A stretch of 48,734 bases of DNA from Crocinitomicaceae bacterium (GTDB lineage Bacteria; Bacteroidota; Bacteroidia; Flavobacteriales_D; Crocinitomicaceae): positions 95,424-144,157 of the forward strand of contig JAKVAQ010000005.1 in the NCBI GenBank assembly GCA_022447665.1. The letters are read 5' to 3'. Shown here piece after piece: positions 2,599-30,220 of this stretch; the stretch's first letter is position 1, and every line of letters begins with the position of its first letter. A program made the translations under genes and the position numbers. Under the pieces are notes generated by a model. It had not been told where the DNA came from, did not search any database, and was given only the letters and a program-made list of their open reading frames with translations.

Positions 2599-4107
2599 AT
2601 GAAATCAATATTCACACTTCTTGCAATTTGGTCGATTTTGGCTATTGCTCAATATCAAAATCCTATTCAAGACACAGTAGGCACCTATGAAGTGGAAGAT
2701 ATTGCTGGTCTTCGAGCATTGAAAATCCCTGTTAACTTTAACCAATCGAATCCATTAAAATCAATTCCAGATTCAATTAATGACCTTACCATTCAGCGTA
2801 TTGATTTGGTGTATTCTTTAAACAAAGAAAACCCAAATTTCGATCAGAAATCGTTGAATAAAAAGCGAATAAATGCTTTCACCAAAAAGTTTCCGGCTTC
2901 AAAAAATGATTTGGTAGCATGGCGAGAAATAGCTCAAGGTTCGGCCAAGTCGCCAGAAGAGGCAAAAGAGTTATTTCATGGGTTTGTTATTTATTTCAGA
3001 CCCTCTCCTACCAAAGCATCAATGGAAAAAGAATTGGCTTATATTGATGAAATGTTGGGATTCTCAGATAGTCCAAAAAGTGAGGAGACCAAGGAAGCTT
3101 TGAACAGTACAACAACTGAAACCACCTCTGAATCTTCCACAACCAGTATTGAAACAAGCAATAGTACCACAGAAGAAACGGCAGTGCTTTCTGATGTTTT
3201 GCTCCCATTAATCATTGGCGCAGAAGATGGGTGTTTCGAACAAATCTCAATGGAGCGTTACTGCACACCCATTGAAATGAAATCCTACATAGATAGTTTA
3301 TCGGGCACTGTTGGGTATTTAGGAGGTTCCTATTCATTTACATCGATGGGGGGAGAAATTGAAGAAGATGAGCCCGTAAAATATGATGTATTATGGTACC
3401 GAAAAATAGAAGCGGAAGGTTGTGAAAGTGTTACGCCAGTTATAGGCCTGCCCATAACCTATACTATGAATTTTGACCCTGATTACGAGGTTGTAGAAGC
3501 AGTATTCAAACGACATCCGAAATGGCGAAGAGCTTTGGTTGTGATGGATGTAACAGGAAGTATGTCGCCGTACATCGGTAAGACTATGGCGTGGCTAAAA
3601 GAACGAGCAAAGCAGGATCAAATAAACGCTTTTGTATTTTTTAACGACGGAAACATGACTCCAGATGCTGCTAAAAAAGTGGGAATGGTAGGAGGGGTTT
3701 ATGGCACAAAAAATAGCAGTTTTGATGCTATTTACACCACCATGAAAAAAACCATGAGTAAAGGTTATGGTGGAGATTGTCCGGAGAATAATGTTGAAGC
3801 CACCCTCAAAGGGATAAAAGACTATCCGGGATCTGACGAAATAGTTATGGTAGCTGATAATTGGGCTACCCCAAGAGACTTAAGTTTAGTTAAAGACATT
3901 GGCAGACCTGTACACGTCATTTTATGTGGCTCTTATGCCGGAATTAATATCGATTATGTACAGTTAGCTTATGATACTAAAGGCTCTGTTCACACCATTG
4001 AAGAAGACCTCGATATGATGGGTGTAAAACCGGGTGAAACCTTCAATATTGGTGGATACTATTACACCATAATTGATGGAAAGGTGGTAACCGCAGGGAA
4101 TGGGTGA
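2599..4107 (+). CDS. Secreted protein with C-terminal VWA-like domain
   Basis: A 502-residue protein. An N-terminal signal peptide (MKSIFTLLAIWSILAIAQ) sends it out of the cytoplasm. Residues about 20-155 form an alpha/beta region of unknown type, about 160-195 a Ser/Thr/Glu-rich linker, and about 200-305 a Cys-containing region. From about 312 a VWA-like domain begins with a MIDAS-type motif, MDVTGSMSPY (Asp317), followed by a FVFFNDG strand and EIVMVADNWATPRDLS. VWA domains bind ligands through a divalent metal. Here the usual DxSxS reads DVTGS, as in some metal-binding variants. An imperfect 6-bp hairpin (2578-2597) lies immediately before the ATG. It is last in the 1-4107 cluster, and the next gene is on the other strand. 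Confidence 0.72.
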   Translation: MKSIFTLLAIWSILAIAQYQNPIQDTVGTYEVEDIAGLRALKIPVNFNQSNPLKSIPDSINDLTIQRIDLVYSLNKENPNFDQKSLNKKRINAFTKKFPASKNDLVAWREIAQGSAKSPEEAKELFHGFVIYFRPSPTKASMEKELAYIDEMLGFSDSPKSEETKEALNSTTTETTSESSTTSIETSNSTTEETAVLSDVLLPLIIGAEDGCFEQISMERYCTPIEMKSYIDSLSGTVGYLGGSYSFTSMGGEIEEDEPVKYDVLWYRKIEAEGCESVTPVIGLPITYTMNFDPDYEVVEAVFKRHPKWRRALVVMDVTGSMSPYIGKTMAWLKERAKQDQINAFVFFNDGNMTPDAAKKVGMVGGVYGTKNSSFDAIYTTMKKTMSKGYGGDCPENNVEATLKGIKDYPGSDEIVMVADNWATPRDLSLVKDIGRPVHVILCGSYAGINIDYVQLAYDTKGSVHTIEEDLDMMGVKPGETFNIGGYYYTIIDGKVVTAGNG

Positions 4108-4450: not shown

Positions 4451-7198
4451 GTGCTACGAATCCTGACAACGATAATTCTTCTAGTCTCTTTCCTAACACA
4501 TGGTCAGGAACTACAGCTGGTTTTACAAACCGGGAACAAGGGAAAAATCACAGCACTAGACTTCCACTCAAATCGGCCTTACCTTTTGAGCGCGGACAAT
4601 GAAAGTATTGTGATTTGGAACCTTAGTCAGAAAAAGCAATACTCTTCATTCAACTCCAAAAACTATGTCCTCTCTACGGGTTTTTACAGTGAATCTGAAG
4701 TTTTCATCGCTACTAGTAAAAAAGTAACTATTTGGAACTTCGTTCAAGATAAAATCACGGAAGAAATTGAGGACTATAAGGGCATTAAGCAAGTAGATGA
4801 TCTTAATGATGGTTTGGTTATTCAGAACTACAATGAAATCATCATATACGACGTAAAAAGCCATACAGAAAAAAACAAGTATTCTTCTTCTAATATCAAG
4901 AGTTTTGAGCTTTCAACCGAAGGGAATTACATTGGAATTACAGAAAGCGACACCTACGTGTTGTTGCAAACAAGCAGTCTAGAAAAGGTCAGTTCAATTG
5001 AAGAAAAGAACCTCATTGCCTCACATATATCTGATGCAGAAAACAAGGTTTTAATCTCATCGGAAAAGTCAAGTGTAAAAGCATTTAGTGAAGTTGAAAA
5101 TCCTCAACGAAAATATACTATTACTAATGACAGAAACTGGCATATATATAATGCAGTGGCGATATCTGATCATACGATTGTCGTAGGTGACGAAAACGAC
5201 ATCATATCCATCATTGACAATGAAACCGGACGGGTGCTCAAAAACATAAAAAACAATAGTTCTGCCATAAGCGCCTTAGTTATTTCTAAAGATGAAAGCT
5301 TGTTGGCGGTTGGTGGTTTAAATGGACGTGTTAACCTCTATGAATTGAAGAAATACTCCAAACTTCACACATTCGAATCTATTAGTCCAAACGTGACTTC
5401 AATGAAAGTCATCCCATCTACAAATGAATTGTTGCTTGGCTACGATAACGGAATCATCAAAAAATGGAACCTCAACACCCATCAGGTTTCTACCTTAAAA
5501 ACAGATGTTTCACTAGTACCAACTGGCATTAAAAAAGCAACCTATACAGTAATTGAAGTACATGAAGATTATGCAATTCTTGAAAAAGCCTGGTATAAAC
5601 TAGGCTCTGGAAAGAAGACAAAAGAATTCTATATCATGAATTTTGACGATGGTTTTAATACTTATACTTTGGGTGATGAAATAAAAGAAAAAGAGAAAAT
5701 CAAAGAGTACTCAAAGAAGAAGAAAACAGATCTAATTCAATACGGCGAATTTAAAATACGAGCAGATCAAAAAGGGTTTATTCACATTTTGAGGGGAGAA
5801 GAGAGTATACTACGTTTGGTTTCTCCTGAATCCAATTCATTTTTCTACATCACGAATGATAATTATTATTTTGCCTCAAAATCTGCATTGAAATATGTTG
5901 GGGCCCGCTACAAAAATGACTTAATTGGATTTGAACAAATTGATTTAATATTAAACAGGCCTGATAAAGTAATTACTGTTCTGAATTCCGATGCTGATCA
6001 GGAGTATATCGATTTACTGACACGGGCATACGAGAAACGTCTCCAAAAACTAGGTATAAAAGAGGCTTCCTTGCAACTTCTTTCAGATATTCCAACTATC
6101 CAAACAAACCTTGACTCCTTACCTATTCAAGTAAGTGAGCGTGAGCTGACTATCCATATTTCAGCAAATTCAAATGCCAATCTTAAAGCTTTACATGTTC
6201 TTGTTAACGAAGTGCCAATTTATGGTAAGTCTGGAAAACGAATCAATGGACAATCAATTAGCGAAAATATTTCGCTTAAACTCTCCTATGGTATAAATAA
6301 AATATCCGTTTACGTGGAATCGGAAAATGGCTTAAAATCTATCCGAGAAAGCGCCACTATTACTTTAAACGGGTCATACAAACCTGCTATGCATATCCTC
6401 GCCATTGGAGCGAATAAATTTCGAGAAAGCAAATACGACCTTAACTATGCTCGAAAAGATGCAGAGGACCTGACAAATTTATTTGAAGGAAATAAAAACT
6501 ATGATCAAGTTTACACCCACCTTATCGCCTCTGAAGAAGTAACAAAGGAAAATGTATTCAACACCATTAAAGAATTCTCAACAGTGGGTGAAGATGATGT
6601 TATTCTAGTATTCTATGCTGGTCACGGTGTGCTCGATGAGAATTTAGACTATTTCCTATCCACAAGTGACATGGATTTCATGGATCCTTCTTCTAAAGGA
6701 ATTTCATTTGATCTATTTGAGGAAGAGCTCTCAAAATTGCCTTGTCGAAACAAGATGTTAATGATTGACGCCTGTCATTCGGGAGAGTTAGACAAAGATG
6801 AAGTTGTTATTACCGATAAGGAGAAAACTGACGATGATGTAGGTTTAATTGAATTTAGGGCAGCAGGAAGCGAAGTAGATTTGATTGGTGGTAGGAGTGT
6901 TTTTGAACTATCAAAAAATCTATTTGCAGACCTAAGATCCAATTCTGGAGTTGTTACAATATCCTCTGCAGGTGCAGCAGAATATGCGTTAGAAGGAACA
7001 GAGTGGAAAAACGGAGCATTCACCTATTGCCTGCTTGAAGGAATTAGAAACATGGAGGCAGATCTAAATCGCGATAAAAGAATAGACATTAACGAGCTTC
7101 AAACCTATATTTTTGAAAAGGTTCCTGAACTCACCGGAGGGCGTCAAACCCCAACATCTAGAGTTGAATTATTAGAGAAAAACTTCTTTGTATGGTAA
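4451..7198 (+). CDS. Exported WD40-repeat protein with C-terminal caspase (peptidase C14) domain
   Basis: A 915-residue protein beginning at GTG (4451). An in-frame TAA at 4439-4441 rules out any upstream start, and the first residues form a signal peptide (LRILTTIILLVSFLTHGQ). Residues about 25-350 carry degenerate WD40 blades, for example SADNESIVIWNL, AVGGLNGRVNLYEL and LGYDNGIIKKWNL. A variable middle region with a beta-sandwich-like segment follows. From about residue 645 a caspase-like fold begins (MHILAIGANKF), with catalytic His725 in FYAGHG and Cys775 in MIDACHSG, then ISSAGAAEYALEG. Known family activity is cysteine endopeptidase, usually specific for Arg/Lys or Asp. Export places this one in the periplasm or outside. 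It overlaps the next gene by 7 nt and heads a five-gene envelope operon. Confidence 0.88.
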   Translation: MLRILTTIILLVSFLTHGQELQLVLQTGNKGKITALDFHSNRPYLLSADNESIVIWNLSQKKQYSSFNSKNYVLSTGFYSESEVFIATSKKVTIWNFVQDKITEEIEDYKGIKQVDDLNDGLVIQNYNEIIIYDVKSHTEKNKYSSSNIKSFELSTEGNYIGITESDTYVLLQTSSLEKVSSIEEKNLIASHISDAENKVLISSEKSSVKAFSEVENPQRKYTITNDRNWHIYNAVAISDHTIVVGDENDIISIIDNETGRVLKNIKNNSSAISALVISKDESLLAVGGLNGRVNLYELKKYSKLHTFESISPNVTSMKVIPSTNELLLGYDNGIIKKWNLNTHQVSTLKTDVSLVPTGIKKATYTVIEVHEDYAILEKAWYKLGSGKKTKEFYIMNFDDGFNTYTLGDEIKEKEKIKEYSKKKKTDLIQYGEFKIRADQKGFIHILRGEESILRLVSPESNSFFYITNDNYYFASKSALKYVGARYKNDLIGFEQIDLILNRPDKVITVLNSDADQEYIDLLTRAYEKRLQKLGIKEASLQLLSDIPTIQTNLDSLPIQVSERELTIHISANSNANLKALHVLVNEVPIYGKSGKRINGQSISENISLKLSYGINKISVYVESENGLKSIRESATITLNGSYKPAMHILAIGANKFRESKYDLNYARKDAEDLTNLFEGNKNYDQVYTHLIASEEVTKENVFNTIKEFSTVGEDDVILVFYAGHGVLDENLDYFLSTSDMDFMDPSSKGISFDLFEEELSKLPCRNKMLMIDACHSGELDKDEVVITDKEKTDDDVGLIEFRAAGSEVDLIGGRSVFELSKNLFADLRSNSGVVTISSAGAAEYALEGTEWKNGAFTYCLLEGIRNMEADLNRDKRIDINELQTYIFEKVPELTGGRQTPTSRVELLEKNFFVW

Positions 7199-8040
7199 GG
7201 TTAATCGTTTTCATAGCATTAATCATAAGCCTTAACTCCTTTGGTCAAAAAACTGGTTTTGGGCTAAATATTGAATGGGTTCCTACTTCAACGTATCACA
7301 CAGTATTCGACAATACTAACTTTCAATATTTATACGCTGCACCATACACTAGCGAATCTTTAGGTGACAACTTTTTTGAGGAAAATAGTATTTACGATCA
7401 AGTTAGAATCGTCAATATCAACGGTGTTCGTTCTACACCGGGGCAAATAAACTTTGGAGGTTCTTTTGATTTCACTACAAAAAATGACTTCCAATTTATC
7501 GCTGGACTAGACTACACGTATAAAGAATATGACGTATTCTATAACTTTCAGAATATGCTTATTGATTTGGACGATCCAGGTATCGAATTTTTGAATACGG
7601 ATGCTCCGGGAATTGTTGATGAAAGTATCACAGTTAGTAATTGGCAAACCCTATTTTCATTCACCACGAATTATTTCTTACCTACTAAAACAGGAATAAA
7701 ATACTTCGTAAGTGCCGGTTATGCTTCTGCGCTGACATTCGCTACTTCTTATTCCTCTTATATAAAACAGAATGAAGACTATTATCTAGTTCAAGATGAG
7801 TCAGTACAAGCTGAATACTACAATACTCGAATTTTTCAAGACCGTTTATTTGAGGAAGTAAAGACAGATGGTATAGCCAATTACGTGAAATTTGGTGCGG
7901 GCTTAAAACACTTTGGAATTAACTTCGGCTTCAATTACTGGATGAGTTTGGGAGGTTCTAATTCGGAATACTTTTTAAGAAGAAACCAAGTTTCATTCTA
8001 CCTACGTTATCAACTATTTTCAATCCCTGTTTTCAAATGA
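7192..8040 (+). CDS. Outer-membrane beta-barrel protein
   Basis: A 282-residue protein with a signal peptide (MVRLIVFIALIISLNSFGQ) and alternating amphipathic strands with aromatic girdles (GGSFDFTTKNDFQFIAGLDYTY, FGAGLKHFGINFGFNYWMSL in part). It ends in a strand rich in aromatic residues (NQVSFYLRYQLFSIPVF), as expected for a small outer-membrane barrel inserted by the BAM complex. No specific substrate can be read from the sequence. Its start overlaps the caspase gene by 7 nt, and its stop overlaps the next ATG (ATGATGA). It is probably the membrane component around which the neighbouring lipoproteins assemble; that role is inferred from the operon only. Confidence 0.75.
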   Translation: MVRLIVFIALIISLNSFGQKTGFGLNIEWVPTSTYHTVFDNTNFQYLYAAPYTSESLGDNFFEENSIYDQVRIVNINGVRSTPGQINFGGSFDFTTKNDFQFIAGLDYTYKEYDVFYNFQNMLIDLDDPGIEFLNTDAPGIVDESITVSNWQTLFSFTTNYFLPTKTGIKYFVSAGYASALTFATSYSSYIKQNEDYYLVQDESVQAEYYNTRIFQDRLFEEVKTDGIANYVKFGAGLKHFGINFGFNYWMSLGGSNSEYFLRRNQVSFYLRYQLFSIPVFK

Positions 8041-9065
8041 TGAAAAGCTTACTTTACATAGCGATTATCATATTGGGGATCACTTCCTGTAAGAAGATTG
8101 ATGTTTCACCTGCAGGATTCTTTGAGGCTAATTATATCACCGACCCTAATACAGACCAGAGCTTTACTTACTATTACGACGATGGTGAATTAGTGGCTGA
8201 TGCATTAGGAAACCCAATAGTAAATGTAACGTCCAGTGCCGGCACTTTTGATCAAGAAAGTCTACTTCTCTTGAAGTTCAAACGCGAAATAGAACAACTC
8301 CAAGATTCTATTTTACCCTACACTTATTTTATGGGTATTCAGTATGATGATACGATTAAGCAGGATCTTAATCTTTCGTTTAATCTGAACTATGCCTACA
8401 ATAACACGGTCAATAAAAACTATTACGAACGCGAATTTATGCGCGATAACTTCAGCCAACTCAAGCTCTATGAAATTCAATACGAAGATCAAGCAAGCTT
8501 CTATTATGACCCTAATGTAACAGTAGTAGAAAAACCTTTCGTAATTGAAGGAAATGAATTAAAATTCTCAACTAGTAGTAAGAGTTCATTATTCGGATTT
8601 TGTTGGGTTGAAGAGAGTTGGCAAGATACCTTACAGTTTCAATTGAGTGGAACAGATCAAACCAATCTTTATCAAGGTAACCGAGCCAATCCTACAGGAA
8701 GAGAAGGTGCATACTTAGCTGGGAACACACTATTTCTTGATTATTCTGATTCAACATTTGCGGATTCCACTATCGCAGGTGGATCACTTTGGAGAATCCG
8801 AGAATGTCATTTAGCCATCAATAATCCTTCTGAAAGTGTTATAGACAACAATGATGTTTTTTCAGACATCATCATTTTCAGGTATTTAGGAACAACTAAA
8901 ATTCATACTCGCTTGAGTATTACAGAAGATACTGAGATTGAAATTTTAAATTGGCCTGACAATAATCAACATGGACGTTTATCAATAACTGGGCAAGTAA
9001 GGAAAGAGGATACTCAATCTGATGTTCTTATTGATATGATCATTAACTTTAAACGACAGAGATAA
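8037..9065 (+). CDS. Lipoprotein of the WD40-caspase operon
   Basis: A 342-residue protein with signal peptide MMKSLLYIAIIILG and lipobox ITSC, Cys18 being followed by KK. The mature protein is beta-rich (SFTYYYDDGELVADALGN, ESWQDTLQFQLSGT) and has no catalytic motif that I recognise. The basic residues after the Cys do not resemble the acidic surface-export signals known from some Flavobacteriia, so a periplasmic-facing anchor is a reasonable guess. Two adjacent ATGs (8037, 8040) exist; the first was used because it gives the 4-nt overlap with the barrel gene. The stop shares one base with the next ATG (TAATG). Confidence 0.72.
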   Translation: MMKSLLYIAIIILGITSCKKIDVSPAGFFEANYITDPNTDQSFTYYYDDGELVADALGNPIVNVTSSAGTFDQESLLLLKFKREIEQLQDSILPYTYFMGIQYDDTIKQDLNLSFNLNYAYNNTVNKNYYEREFMRDNFSQLKLYEIQYEDQASFYYDPNVTVVEKPFVIEGNELKFSTSSKSSLFGFCWVEESWQDTLQFQLSGTDQTNLYQGNRANPTGREGAYLAGNTLFLDYSDSTFADSTIAGGSLWRIRECHLAINNPSESVIDNNDVFSDIIIFRYLGTTKIHTRLSITEDTEIEILNWPDNNQHGRLSITGQVRKEDTQSDVLIDMIINFKRQR

Positions 9066-9910
9066 TGAGACATTTAGTTTACATACTGCTCTTGAGTTTG
9101 ATTATTATCGGATGTAAGAAAGAAACGCCACAAATCAATCAATCCAATGTATCCCTCAAGTTGATCTCTGATGTGTTCACTCCAAATAAATACTTGATTC
9201 AAAATTTATTGGTGACTTCTACGAACGACACAGTAATCAATGATGGTAGAATCCGTATAATTGACTCTTTAAATGGCGTTTTGGCCGATGATACGTGGAG
9301 AAATTTCTTGGAGTATACTATTGAATTGACCGAACCAGTAGAGTACAATATTAATTTCAATCTTTACCATATCTCTGGAGGAAGAGAAGTCTTAGATGCC
9401 ACGACAAACGCAAATCTCGACAACCGTGTTTATCCAAAATACTTGAAGTTAAATTCTGCAGAAATGACAACCGCTTGTCTTGAAGATGGTTTTTATGGAG
9501 AAGAAGTAAGTAGTACCTTCGGAACTTTCGTTTATATAAACCAAAAGCAGCTTGATATTTTTGATGATGAGGACACAGAATATGACACGCCTTATGAAAA
9601 CTTGACCTTCTTTGAACGTGTTTATTCACCAAAAAAACTCAGCTTTAACTTTACGGACTTGAAATTCCCTGTAAGGACTTTACAAAACAATAGCATGCGC
9701 TGGATGTATTACCAAGTTTATATCAACTACCCATTAGCTATCGGTTCATCATTTATTGAATATCGAGACATCCGATTTAATATTGATTTACAAGAATTAT
9801 ACTACGCTGGAAATAACGAAGCCGGAGTTGAATATTCGATTGTCAACGAAATCCGAAACACAGGCGACCCTGATTACGGAGAGATAAAAATTGAATGGAT
9901 TTATGAATAA
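9065..9910 (+). CDS. Lipoprotein of the WD40-caspase operon
   Basis: A 281-residue protein with signal peptide MRHLVYILLLSLI and lipobox IIGC, Cys17 followed by KKETPQ. The mature region is predicted to be mostly beta-strand, with many Tyr/Phe/Asp residues (FYGEEVSSTFGTFVYINQ, RWMYYQVYINYPLAIG) and no named domain. It overlaps the upstream stop by one base. It differs in length and sequence from the lipoprotein before it, so the two are not obvious duplicates. Function not recognised; co-expression with the caspase and barrel is very likely from the overlaps. Confidence 0.72.
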   Translation: MRHLVYILLLSLIIIGCKKETPQINQSNVSLKLISDVFTPNKYLIQNLLVTSTNDTVINDGRIRIIDSLNGVLADDTWRNFLEYTIELTEPVEYNINFNLYHISGGREVLDATTNANLDNRVYPKYLKLNSAEMTTACLEDGFYGEEVSSTFGTFVYINQKQLDIFDDEDTEYDTPYENLTFFERVYSPKKLSFNFTDLKFPVRTLQNNSMRWMYYQVYINYPLAIGSSFIEYRDIRFNIDLQELYYAGNNEAGVEYSIVNEIRNTGDPDYGEIKIEWIYE

Positions 9911-10949
9911 GTTTCTCTTCATAGTATCCCTTTTCTTTGTGGTTTCTTGTACGGAAAAAGCGAGTAACCCTGAACGCATTACACTTGAAGGTGGAGAAGC
10001 TTTTGAGTTTACCGCATCAACAAGTGGGAATAAAAACTATTTATGGGATTTTGGAGATGGAAAAACGAGTACTGAAAAGTCTCCTACTTATGCTTATTCT
10101 ACCCCAGGTATTTACATGGTGACGTTTTCCGAACTAAAAAATGGTCGCTTAAAACGTCAAATAAACCGGTATTTGGTGAAGGTTAATCAACTGTATCGCC
10201 CAAGAGTATTTGGCACCCGACTGGCCAGTTCCGGGAGTTACGGCGGGCTTGAATATGATTACCTATACGCTTCTAAAGAGTCTTGGATCGCTTTTGAACT
10301 CGCCGAGAATGAAGATCCTGAAGACTACTCGTATGAGATTATTATTGACAATACAATAACCTTTACTAGCGATATGGATACATGGCTGTATTCTGGAATC
10401 AATTACCAGTTCACGGAATCTGGGCCTGTTGATTTGACATTCAAGGTATACGATAAAAATAATGTGAGTGATCAGTTGGATACAACCGTGTGGATAGGAG
10501 AAGATGAGAGCGAAGTAACCTATCAATTTCCAGATGTTCACAGCGCCAGTATCGGAACGGTTTCGCAACGGTGCTTAATTTTTTATGAAGCCGAAGACGC
10601 CACATCTTACGGACCTATAAGCGATAAAGAAAGTATACTTATCTACCCTGGACCTTCTAGTAGTTATAATCTTTTCAGTTTCGGTGCTGAGGAAATCTGG
10701 GATGAAGATTTGAATACATATTGGGACTACAGAGGGATCTCTATGAATTCATTTGGAGCAGTTTCAGATGGAGGGTCTGCTACTGTAACAATTCCGGCAT
10801 TCGACGATAGTGATGATTTTGATGAGCTATATGTGATGTGCGTTATTGTTGGTCAAAACGGAATTGCTTTTGGTGAGAAAATTCAAAAAATCACTCCCGG
10901 CGCTATCGCATCTTCAGAAGTCTTTGACTTGAATTATTTACCTTATTAA
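9903..10949 (+). CDS. PKD-domain lipoprotein of the WD40-caspase operon
   Basis: A 348-residue protein. The ATG at 9903 is preferred over the one at 9891 because it gives a standard lipoprotein signal (MNKFLFIVSLFFVVSC, Cys16) and an 8-nt overlap (ATGAATAA) with the preceding stop. Residues about 25-100 form a PKD domain with the diagnostic WDFGDGKTSTEKSPTYAYSTPG, an Ig-like fold used for binding proteins or glycans at cell surfaces. The remainder is beta-rich and unassigned (FTSDMDTWLYSGINYQF, WDEDLNTYWDYRGISM). It is the last gene of the operon and faces the AlkD gene tail-to-tail with only 1 bp between them; no intrinsic terminator is evident. Confidence 0.8.
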   Translation: MNKFLFIVSLFFVVSCTEKASNPERITLEGGEAFEFTASTSGNKNYLWDFGDGKTSTEKSPTYAYSTPGIYMVTFSELKNGRLKRQINRYLVKVNQLYRPRVFGTRLASSGSYGGLEYDYLYASKESWIAFELAENEDPEDYSYEIIIDNTITFTSDMDTWLYSGINYQFTESGPVDLTFKVYDKNNVSDQLDTTVWIGEDESEVTYQFPDVHSASIGTVSQRCLIFYEAEDATSYGPISDKESILIYPGPSSSYNLFSFGAEEIWDEDLNTYWDYRGISMNSFGAVSDGGSATVTIPAFDDSDDFDELYVMCVIVGQNGIAFGEKIQKITPGAIASSEVFDLNYLPY

Positions 10950-27937: not shown

Positions 27938-28246
27938 TTACACGCGTACTCCTATGACAAGGACAGCCTCATCTTTTCGACCTTTCCGGTCGAGATTCGG
28001 TCCTTCACGAGCCGTGCTCGCTCTCAACATCGATTCTTGACAGAATCAAATTCCGTCACTTGTAATAGTTCGTCCGAGTTACACGCGTACTCCTATGACA
28101 AGGACAGCCTCATCTTTTCGACCTTTCCGGTCGAGATTCGGTCCTTCACGAGCCGTGCTCGCTCTCATCATCGATTCTTGACAGAATCAAATTCCGTCAC
28201 TTGTAATAGTTCGTCCGAGTTACACGCGTACTCCTATGACAAGGAC
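27938..28246. repeat. 141-bp tandem repeat, 2.2 copies, overlapping the phosphatase 3' end
   Basis: Unit 1 is 27938-28078, unit 2 is 28079-28219, and a partial third copy of 27 bp (28220-28246) is the real end of the phosphatase gene. The two full units differ at one base (A at 28027, T at 28168). Each unit starts with the last codons and stop of the phosphatase gene (minus strand) and then holds three hairpins: in unit 1, TCGACC/GGTCGA (27977-27993), CGAGC/GCTCG (28008-28020) and GATTCT/AGAATC (28032-28047). Because 141 is a multiple of three, spurious long frames appear through it. Confidence 0.9.
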
Positions 28247-30220
28247 GTCATCAACCTGTTCAAAATCACCCTTCCATTTATGAAAAATATCAAGCAATAA
28301 CTCTTTTTGTTCTGCCATTGCTAACGTATGGTTTTTATGCAGAAGATTGCGAAAAGGTTTGTACTTCATCTTTTTACCTGATAATTTTATTTTCGGATCG
28401 CCACCAAATTGATCAGCGTACCCGTCTGAAAAAAGATAAATTGCATCTCCTTCACTCAATTGCATCTCTTGATTCTCAAAAGGAATGGACTCACCATGCA
28501 TATACCCCACTGGCATTTTATCACCTTTGAGTATTTTCATTTCCCCACCTTGACAGATATAGGCTGGGTTATTGGCTCCTGCAAATTGAACCTTATTCGT
28601 TTTCTGATTCAGGGCACAAATGCTCATGTCCATACCGTCTTTACGCATATTTCCACCCCCTTCTCTAATCAATGCATTAATCACTTTCTCGCGTAATTCA
28701 TTTAATATAATCGCAGGAGTTGTAATCTTCTTTTCATTAACTATTTGGTGCAAGAAGGTATTTCCAATCATTGACATAAAAGCACCCGGAACGCCATGTC
28801 CAGTGCAATCCACCGCAGCAAATATTAACTCATCTCCAACCTTTGAATACCAATAAAAATCGCCACTAACAATATCACGAGGCATCAATATGACAAATGA
28901 ATCTTTGAATAATTTCTTGTTGGCCTTTGTAGGTAATAACGCCTCTTGAATTTTACGCGCATAAAGTATACTTGCAGTAATATCCTCATTCTTCTCGTTG
29001 ATGATTGCGTAAGCCTGTGTGAGTTTATTGTTGGCTTGTTGCTTAATTCTATTTCTATTGTACAAAGTGAATACACTTAGCAGTAAAAGCACCAATCCAA
29101 TGATAGACGACCATATAATGATTCTAGAATTGGTCAATTCTTCTTTTCCTTTTTGAAGTTCTAGGTCAGCTACTTTGTTTTGGGTAGCCAATAATTCATT
29201 TTCTCTTTCAGTTCTTTCCGTATTGTATTTTTCTTGAGTCTCAAGCATAAAATTTCTATTCTCCTGAACAAGTACAGAATCATTCCATGCTATATACAGT
29301 TTATAATATTCAATACTTTCTTCATATTCCCCTTTTAACTCTAATGCTTCTGCCGCCGTTTTATAGGCGTTACGCATATCAGCAGCAATAGGGTTATCTA
29401 ATTTCAACAGGTATTTTAAAGAGAAATTATTGTATTTCAATGCCATATCAGGATCACCAATGTCTTCATACAATACAGCCAAATTTCCATAGGTATCAGA
29501 AACACCTAACCAATCGCCTTCGTCTTTGTATATATCAATCGCATTGAAATAGTTCTTTTTGGCCTGTGCCATATTCCCTTTAAGCTTCTCCAAGCTTCCG
29601 AGATTAATATATGTATGTGCAAGAAGTGCCCTATCCTCTGATGTAAGCGCTAAATCCAAAGCCTTTGTCAAATATTTTTCAGCCGTTTCATTATCGTTCA
29701 GTTGAATATAAATAGCACTTAAGTTTACAAACGAAAGCGTTGCATCATCAACTGCTCCAATCGCCAATTCAATATTTGCCGCCTGATTAAAAAACGCTAA
29801 GCCCCCCTCATAATTCTCTGTCATGAATTCAAGTACCCCGAGATTATTGTAGGTTTTAGCCAAGTAAACCGAATCATTTCTTAAAAGACAATAATCCAAT
29901 GCCTCTTGGAAATAGAACATCGCCGAATCACTTTCACCATTGTTTATATAGTGATAACCTAGAAGATTGTAAGACTTTGGTAAATCCTTTTGAGAGAACT
30001 CTTGCGCAATATTGACTGACTTCTCAGCAATGAATAATGCTTTCTCAGAATCAACACCTTCATAAAAATCATAGGCCTCCTCTAAAATGAGGATTTGTTC
30101 ATGATGATCAGATGTTCTTGTGAGAATACTTTCTAAACTATCAATATCCTGCCCAGCAATTAACTCACTCGATAACAGAGAGATAAAAAAGAATGATAGT
30201 AATTTCAAGTATTTTAACAT
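28220..30220 (-). CDS. TPR-containing sensor with SpoIIE-type PP2C serine phosphatase domain
   Basis: A 666-residue signalling protein. Signal peptide (about 1-23), then six or so tetratricopeptide repeats in the periplasm (about 45-310; for example YNNLGVLEFMTENYEGGLAF), a coiled coil (about 320-366), one membrane helix (367-385), a short linker and a cytosolic SpoIIE/RsbU-type phosphatase domain (about 440-666). Metal-binding aspartates appear in DIVSGDFYW (Asp454) and AAVDCTGHGVPGAFMS (Asp471). Such proteins dephosphorylate anti-sigma-antagonist-like partners; no partner is encoded nearby. The last eight codons (VLVIGVRV and stop) are repeated downstream in the 141-bp tandem repeat. Confidence 0.9.
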   Translation of the reverse strand: MLKYLKLLSFFFISLLSSELIAGQDIDSLESILTRTSDHHEQILILEEAYDFYEGVDSEKALFIAEKSVNIAQEFSQKDLPKSYNLLGYHYINNGESDSAMFYFQEALDYCLLRNDSVYLAKTYNNLGVLEFMTENYEGGLAFFNQAANIELAIGAVDDATLSFVNLSAIYIQLNDNETAEKYLTKALDLALTSEDRALLAHTYINLGSLEKLKGNMAQAKKNYFNAIDIYKDEGDWLGVSDTYGNLAVLYEDIGDPDMALKYNNFSLKYLLKLDNPIAADMRNAYKTAAEALELKGEYEESIEYYKLYIAWNDSVLVQENRNFMLETQEKYNTERTERENELLATQNKVADLELQKGKEELTNSRIIIWSSIIGLVLLLLSVFTLYNRNRIKQQANNKLTQAYAIINEKNEDITASILYARKIQEALLPTKANKKLFKDSFVILMPRDIVSGDFYWYSKVGDELIFAAVDCTGHGVPGAFMSMIGNTFLHQIVNEKKITTPAIILNELREKVINALIREGGGNMRKDGMDMSICALNQKTNKVQFAGANNPAYICQGGEMKILKGDKMPVGYMHGESIPFENQEMQLSEGDAIYLFSDGYADQFGGDPKIKLSGKKMKYKPFRNLLHKNHTLAMAEQKELLLDIFHKWKGDFEQVDDVLVIGVRV

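Follow-up and report, generated by a model that had tools for sequence, protein, structure and literature searches.

A divergent member of a recurrent cassette predicted to encode an exported WD40-caspase and an outer-membrane barrel in a Crocinitomicaceae bacterium

The five overlapping genes at positions 4451 to 10949 of the window (the whole 48,734-nucleotide stretch of DNA that was analysed) appear, by sequence comparison, to be a divergent example of a cassette that recurs in Bacteroidota and combines a putatively exported WD40-caspase with an outer-membrane barrel and, often, a lipoprotein. Gene overlaps, domain content, an intact catalytic dyad, the modelled barrel fold and the recurrence and clustering of the cassette together form the sequence and model basis for an envelope caspase module, a reading that we consider evenly poised, in which the exported WD40-caspase would work with its cognate barrel and the operon lipoproteins. 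From this basis we infer the localization of the module, a physical complex, proteolytic activity, its specificity and a sensing role. Such a cassette is not described in the open-licence literature searched, in keeping with the initial annotation, which knew of no named system with this composition.

Operon layout and export signals

The genes and the first junction are as follows:

4451..7198, + strand: gene 1, WD40-caspase with signal peptide (GTG start, 915 aa)
7192..8040, + strand: gene 2, OmpA/NspA-type outer-membrane beta-barrel by its model (282 aa), divergent member of the cassette barrel family
8037..9065, + strand: gene 3, orphan lipoprotein (342 aa; lipobox ITSC)
9065..9910, + strand: gene 4, orphan lipoprotein (281 aa; lipobox IIGC)
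9903..10949, + strand: gene 5, lipoprotein with PKD domain (348 aa from ATG; lipobox VVSC)
7192..7198, + strand: ATGGTAA overlap of genes 1 and 2, where the final codons of gene 1, Trp and stop, contain the start of gene 2

The open reading frame coordinates agree with the earlier description of five overlapping genes: from gene 1 to gene 5, the four junctions overlap by 7, 4, 1 and 8 nt (were gene 5 to begin instead at the TTG at 9891, it would have 352 aa and overlap gene 4 by 20 nt). Overlaps of 1–20 nt occur in 8 of the 25 same-strand neighbour pairs in the window, the operon supplying 4 of these 8; four in succession are unusual, but alone not decisive. A gap of 343 nt sets the operon off upstream, a convergent gene follows it 1 nt downstream, and its five genes are probably co-transcribed. 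A flavobacterial promoter consensus is absent upstream of gene 1 and occurs 4 times in the window, against 3.3 expected. Every product had been credited with an export signal, and inspection combined with a home-made rule (not SignalP) bears this out, with signal peptides on genes 1 and 2 and lipoboxes on genes 3–5.

The upstream VWA gene (2599–4107) was considered as a sixth part and rejected, on account of the 343-nt gap and its wide occurrence apart from gene 1: with its own genome counted, 47 of 99 genomes match it at E ≤ 1e-5, two of these being G005 and G006, for which there was no gene 1 match.

The WD40-caspase

Gene 1 matches Pfam Peptidase_C14 (E 6.3e-21, 75.6 bits against a cut-off of 21.4) and WD40 (E 4.2e-10), and its structural model (pLDDT 79.8, pTM 0.73) suggests the following features, all on the + strand:

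about aa 22–348, + strand: propeller (Pfam WD40 and model)
between propeller and sandwich-like domain, + strand: beta-rich and helical linker (named from the model strand list)
about aa 549–639, + strand: sandwich-like beta domain (named from the model strand list)
about aa 645–915, the protein's end, + strand: caspase domain (Pfam Peptidase_C14 and model)
6623..6625, + strand: codon of catalytic His725
6773..6775, + strand: codon of catalytic Cys775, in DACHSG
7061..7096, + strand: EF-hand-like loop DLNRDKRIDINE, aa 871–882, in the C-terminal part of the caspase domain

The initial annotation had described a WD40 region and a C14 domain with an intact His725/Cys775 dyad, and had named conservation of the dyad among homologues as a test. 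Both descriptions stand, and the two residues are invariant in 9 of 9 relatives and in 41 of 41 relatives gathered without motif selection. The latter also all keep Asp773, which corresponds to the S1-pocket acid of metacaspases; the caspase perhaps cuts after Arg or Lys, as orthocaspases do, a specificity that this residue would fit. The EF-hand-like loop matches Pfam EF-hand_1 below the cut-off (E 0.0059), and D871, its first residue, is kept in 109 of 110 gene 1 relatives, while position 882, its last, is acidic (E or D) in 109 of 110, the remaining row showing a gap in either case; the caspase may perhaps be loaded with Ca2+ through it.

The closest structural match of the propeller is Apaf-1 (Z 31.2, 274 residues aligned, 2.1 Å), from which nothing is concluded because G-beta and ribosome-factor propellers lie within 2 Z. 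Among solved structures, the 60 matches listed for A3 are WD40 or WD40-containing proteins, and the caspase part found no match among solved structures. The propeller also matches the BamB model TIGR03300 weakly (E 8.4e-5; 21.4 bits, with the cut-off at 285.2), as might be expected if the caspase served constitutive envelope processing or quality control, maturing or trimming barrels and lipoproteins with no sensing and with a propeller like that of an assembly factor. The operon partners do resemble envelope proteins, and 9 of 19 genomes with gene 1 matches have 8–13 such matches each; however, the resemblance to BamB seems to be one of propellers in general, and the patchiness of gene 1 relatives, found at E ≤ 1e-20 in 24 of 395 genomes of the class, would be odd for a housekeeping function. 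We regard this explanation as unlikely.

Among known proteins, the prokaryotic caspase homologues (orthocaspases and bacterial metacaspases, Peptidase_C14) share with gene 1 a C14 domain with a His-Cys dyad. The available part of PMC3501461 describes a caspase-NACHT-WD40 architecture, reports 28 genes for Haliscomenobacter hydrossis (Bacteroidetes), and finds that 14 of 217 operons include OmpA domains; gene 1, by contrast, has an N-terminal WD40 region and an export signal, and a small barrel and lipoproteins are co-encoded with it, a combination absent from that part of the paper. On caspase-containing conflict systems, the available part of PMC7159879 deals with NTP-dependent ones. The best NCBIfam match of gene 1 is the EACC1-associated caspase NF047832 (E 4.7e-22), whose curated cut-off of 140 bits is well above the 78.5 bits scored; for none of the five genes does any NCBIfam model exceed its cut-off. 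PG1058 of the type IX secretion system, presumably PorE, is likewise a WD40-containing envelope protein of Bacteroidetes, but gene 1 carries a caspase domain at its C-terminus, and the five genes gave no match to the type IX secretion system.

The barrel and the lipoproteins

The second product had been called a beta-barrel, and its AlphaFold2 model is one (pLDDT 73.6, pTM 0.69; 95 of 282 residues at pLDDT of at least 90; nine strand segments). By this model gene 2 matches the eight-stranded outer-membrane barrel fold that is common to the OmpA/OprF/NspA type, in comparisons with OprF (4rlc; Z 16.6, 128 aligned, 2.5 Å), NspA (1p4t; Z 15.7, 146 aligned, 2.5 Å) and OmpA (1bxw; Z 14.7, 164 aligned, 3.3 Å). 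As Pfam gave no match over the cut-off for genes 2–4, gene 2 is taken to be without the OmpA C-terminal domain.

Gene 2 ranks second of 207 exported proteins of 200–360 aa when these are compared with the cassette barrel profile by hhalign (probability 91.6, residues 88–281), and is borderline by hmmsearch with that profile (E 0.013–0.06); its rank fell from 2 to 6 when L078 was added. With phmmer, no training barrel was among its better matches. When only the initial seven long barrels were compared, neither phmmer (E 0.033) nor hhalign (probabilities 8 and 5) gave a significant result. Gene 2 is placed in the barrel family, as a divergent member, by profile and fold together and not by single-sequence search. 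A plain protein search of 59 relative genomes found it in its own genome only, and among 240 family genomes it had 13 weak, partial non-own matches (best 7.9e-5). At three of these 13 loci, which were inspected, no gene 1 relative lies nearby; two of the three matches follow a 1280-aa gene that we take to be PorU, and are presumably PorV, a label that derives from this position after the presumed PorU.

Genes 3–5 are lipoproteins by their lipoboxes, the last with a PKD domain (PKD_4, E 1.1e-11), as initially annotated. Genes 3 and 4 matched their own genome only in the 59 relative genomes, and had no convincing homologue in the 240 family genomes (best non-own E 8.1e-4 and 0.0076, respectively, each over a short piece), while gene 5 matches other proteins through its PKD region. 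Against three lipoprotein profiles built from the cassettes, genes 3–5 gave a match at signal-peptide level or none, and they fall outside the recurring lipoprotein families.

Partners without recognizable relatives in the 59 relative genomes, a patchily distributed caspase and a weak match to the generic caspase model of PADLOC (4.2e-10) might also speak for envelope-level defence, in which the module would detect phages or predators attacking at the surface, with the caspase damaging or remodelling the envelope. This seems quite improbable: the Pfam-scanned neighbours in the window are of housekeeping types or without assignment, with no defence gene among them, and PADLOC, run on the five genes and one L165 lipoprotein, found no other match and no complete system.

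Recurrence of the cassette and a possible mechanism

The caspase tree comprises 110 of 113 rows (L121_1, the same locus as L072, and the fragments L144_3 and L119_1 were dropped; other partial genes were kept). In this biased sample, a family barrel lies in the operon or convergently alongside in 27 of the 110 gene 1 relatives, or in 31 with four uncertain ones, and none was detected in the operon in 79; 25 of the 27 counted barrels sat in the profile training set, and L180 entered through the barrel search itself. The barrels of L069 (E 0.16) and L127 (E 2.4) are uncertain. A lipoprotein accompanies 18 of the 27 (by inspection of gene listings). The iteration of the barrel profile was guided by position, since it took in L101 beside L097 (E 0.97) and L105 beside near relatives (E 0.14) and left out better-scoring outsiders such as L050_9600 (E 0.031).

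Genome-scan frequencies and dyad counts are inflated by the use of an alignment of barrel-partnered caspases and of motifs containing the dyad. A fairer sample was drawn from the 24 matching class genomes (45 matches listed), namely 20 stretches from 18 of them with 21 caspases of at least 150 bits. Two of the 21 have barrel, lipoprotein and caspase together, by profiles not trained on them, and in 19 no family barrel was detected in the operon, though neighbours can be missing because some contigs are short (L194, L197). As most relatives, 79 of 110 and 19 of 21, showed no family barrel in the operon, the caspase family in general does not seem to need one. The barrel profile gave 14 non-own matches at E ≤ 1e-5 in the 395 class genomes, where misses are likely because at most 6 candidates were scored per genome. 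The strongest (G612, 1.8e-23) lies in a barrel, lipoprotein and caspase set and is the only one to adjoin an exported-type gene 1 relative; that of L191 adjoins a signal-less WD40 protein, itself a weak match. Six held-out genes reached E 0.05 with the profile, only two of them in caspase operons.

Cassette members cluster on the caspase tree, with 7 label changes against a mean of 27.2 and a minimum of 20 in 1000 shuffles, and export signals are common to gene 1 relatives, though not to all (home-made rule). Two tandem caspase-barrel pairs occur in one genome, and in the downstream one caspase and barrel alike group with L071. The test that had been proposed, a search for the same gene order and the same five families in other Bacteroidota, succeeds in part: the composition recurs and the component types are retained, but order is permuted and lipoprotein families differ between lineages, and genes 3 and 4 are orphans.

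That the exact genes 3–5 are not conserved, and that short overlaps are found in 4 of 21 window pairs outside the operon too, would suit a loosely assembled operon, in which unrelated surface proteins lie next to one caspase among many paralogues and their association is functionally meaningless. Against it, the cassette recurs in several lineages in permuted order, its members cluster on the tree, it was detected among genes outside the training set, and the ATGGTAA junction is identical in all 7 bases in 7 of 16 junctions examined. We judge this reading very improbable.

In the envelope module that we favour, the signal peptide would export the WD40-caspase to the periplasm, where it may act with the cognate outer-membrane barrel and the same-operon lipoproteins, held at the outer membrane. 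The propeller, as a protein-binding platform, could dock the protease to these partners or recognize substrates; the lipoprotein ectodomains, which vary between cassettes (here PKD, in others PepSY-like or VWA-like), and the loops of the barrel might sense signals or present substrates; and the caspase, perhaps Arg/Lys-specific and perhaps Ca2+-loaded, would then cleave envelope proteins. The originally proposed protease joined to a putative surface-exposed assembly survives in part, with an intact dyad and co-encoded outer-membrane components, and loses the wording of five fixed families. More tentatively, and with some doubt, such modules may represent a new class of Bacteroidota envelope signalling, a periplasmic caspase controlled by a dedicated barrel and swappable lipoprotein sensors; if so, caspase signalling would operate at the outer membrane without any NTPase. 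The papers retrieved on bacterial caspase homologues are chiefly concerned with cell death, conflict systems and cyanobacteria. The recurring cassette makes an extracytoplasmic role testable, for example in two strains that carry it, Crocinitomix catalasitica ATCC 23190 and Reichenbachiella faecimaris DSM 26133.

Among cassette lipoproteins elsewhere, Pfam finds PepSY_like in 4 of 5 scanned GPEGG lipoproteins, and the 'VWA-like' lipoprotein is one weak match among six scanned (L114, 0.0016). By impression only, the GPEGG lipoproteins look ZU5-like.

Operon architecture and gene order in relatives

The first gene of the operon encodes an exported WD40-caspase. It belongs to a real, recurring predicted envelope caspase cassette, which combines such a caspase with a family outer-membrane barrel and often a lipoprotein; the window represents a divergent version of this cassette. 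The five ORFs and four overlaps (7, 4, 1 and 8 nt) claimed in the initial annotation were borne out by ORF mapping; the upstream neighbour is separated by 343 nt, and a convergent DNA-alkylation-repair gene lies 1 nt downstream. In Pfam scans, gene 1 gave Peptidase_C14 and WD40 matches and gene 5 a PKD match, with no match above cut-off for genes 2-4. Features of the window are:

4451-10949 (+), five-gene operon: caspase, barrel and three lipoproteins
2599-4107, exported protein, weakly matching VWA; widespread (47/99 genomes) and with no tie to the caspase
28220-30220, TPR-SpoIIE protein

Genes of relatives were mapped in 40 stretches (loci, L plus number) by a simple ORF caller. A barrel-like exported protein directly follows the caspase in L044, L045, L046, L069, L070 and L071; in L072 a lipoprotein comes first and the barrel second. 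In L070:7791-17607 a single genome carries two caspase-barrel pairs in tandem, both with the 7-nt overlap, and a stop in the propeller part splits the upstream caspase gene into two ORFs. In L050:11272-16151 the barrel gene is convergent with the caspase (4-nt overlap), the two being co-directional in related loci. Of 16 junctions examined, 7 share the 7-nt overlap ATGGTAA (those of the window, L071, L091, L097 and L130, and both in L070), a recurrence that suggests translational coupling.

When an alignment of nine barrel-associated caspases was used to scan named genomes, 79 loci were kept, mostly labelled Bacteroidota, including Crocinitomix catalasitica ATCC 23190 (L130) and Reichenbachiella faecimaris DSM 26133 (L091). 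The caspase precedes barrel and lipoprotein in L091, L093, L097 and L101, and a barrel alone in, for example, L089 and L130. Barrel and lipoprotein precede the caspase in the scan loci L165, L128, L151, L153, L126 and L136, likewise in L105, L114, L117, L119, L125 and L096, and in L078, which came from the relatives and not the scan. In four cassettes a second exported, possibly barrel, protein (218-223 aa) lies immediately upstream of the family barrel:

L119:2393-3064
L125:4486-5157
L105:2287-2943
L117:2515-3177

Passages of PMC3501461, PMC7159879 and PMC5587647 describe operons that contain caspase homologues, in some cases together with OmpA domains; in the open-licence papers searched, including those passages, no description of the caspase-barrel-lipoprotein set was found.

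The barrel family and its association with the caspase

Searched among 1322 distinct genes, a profile of nine long barrels matched the single-domain barrels of L165, L128, L151, L153, L126 and L136 (5e-11 to 2e-4) and that of L093 (3.5e-6). Later rounds added L091 (4e-8), L096 (3.6e-9) and L072 (1.4e-4) and matched L114, L119, L117 and L125 (1e-4 to 3e-3); the L101 and L105 barrels were included beside close relatives despite E-values of 0.97 and 0.14. Gene 2, left out of every profile, ranked fifth among the remaining genes at E 0.013 and then second at E 0.014, aligned over most of its length; after L078 had joined, it ranked sixth at 0.06. In an hhalign comparison of 207 exported proteins 200-360 aa long, it came second (probability 91.6, residues 88-281), below only the L180 cassette barrel, and its structural model is a barrel matching OprF, NspA and OmpA.

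At 150 bits or more, 113 distinct relatives of gene 1 were collected; 29 of them have a barrel-profile match in the operon run or convergent alongside. With one duplicate and two fragments removed, a family barrel accompanies 27 of 110, plus four uncertain cases (L069, L127, L078 and L136). The profile had been trained on 25 of these 27 barrels; the two exceptions are gene 2 and the L180 barrel, L180 having entered the sample via the barrel search itself. By our reading of gene maps, a lipoprotein adjoins the barrel or caspase in 18 of the 27 cassettes; the other nine have barrels of 602-650 aa, a more distant L089 lipoprotein being left uncounted.

A held-out sample comprised 20 stretches from 18 of the 24 caspase-bearing class genomes, with 21 caspases, all new. 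Two of the 21 (L196 and L205) are preceded by a barrel and a VWA-like lipoprotein, both components being detected with profiles trained on neither locus (barrel E 0.0096 and 5.3e-6). Six matches to the barrel profile reached E 0.05 or better among the held-out genes; four of them are something other than cassette barrels, namely L203_4730 (2.5e-4), the L196 caspase and two weaker ones. Searching the class genomes with the barrel profile first gave one strong match outside the window's own genome (1.8e-23), adjoining a caspase, and 13 weak ones, none adjoining an exported caspase.

Caspase phylogeny and active site

In a midpoint-rooted tree of 41 caspases, the barrel-associated ones and the window lie near each other; deep support is weak, with L069 joining the rest at 28. 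On the 110-caspase tree, 31 labelled tips, uncertain ones included, required 7 label changes versus a mean of 27.2 (minimum 20) in 1000 shuffles. The 17 caspase-before-barrel members, two of them uncertain, are set apart by a branch with support 1.0; among the remaining 93, the barrel-before-caspase sets emerge in separate parts. L093 groups as sister to the window (0.991), and support is weak at many of the other deep nodes.

H725, D773 and C775 are kept in 41/41 relatives found without motif selection; their presence in 69/69 of the others says little, because all but one came from a motif scan. In the EF-hand-like loop near the gene 1 C terminus, D871 is present in 109/110 and E or D at 882 in 109/110, and the caspase may be calcium-dependent.

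Lipoproteins, copy number and other neighbours

One lipoprotein group (n = 8) is VWA-like in appearance, with one weak Pfam match, and its profile matches an L100 protein upstream of a caspase (2e-30). Members of a second group (n = 7) start with a GPEGG..FY-like sequence; Pfam found PepSY_like repeats in four of five scanned, the R. faecimaris one having none. The GPEGG-group profile picks up a short C-terminal segment of the L093 (9e-6) and L072 (0.0015) lipoproteins, and a profile of short lipoproteins matches L072 (3e-11) and L151 (1.5e-4); given these cross-matches, lipoproteins of both lineages may share a C-terminal part. Genes 3-5 matched the cassette lipoprotein profiles nowhere beyond the signal peptide, and homologue searches found no convincing full-length relative of them.

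The window's own genome (4.06 Mb) has seven C14 matches, one just in a 118-aa frame. It also carries a decayed caspase copy, with C-terminal pieces only, in two frames (L043:11848-12455, contig C34). The gene 1 protein is matched in 19/59 genomes, its own included, nine of which have 8-13 matches each, although some matches cover just the WD40 part or are fragments of a single gene; the caspase domain occurs in 24/395 class genomes at E <= 1e-20. The contigs that carry the relatives in L109, L163 and L095 bear the labels Thermoplasmatota, Deltaproteobacteria and Spirochaetota, through either misbinning or transfer. Judged by eye, family caspases adjoin FecR-like or CHASE2-like proteins in L140:5918-11077, L109:4967-10131 and L180:3416-7728. 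In L083:11074-16520 and L085:11242-16639, the caspase is followed at <=4 nt by an exported protein (709-725 aa) with a C terminus that by eye resembles SpoIIE-type phosphatases.
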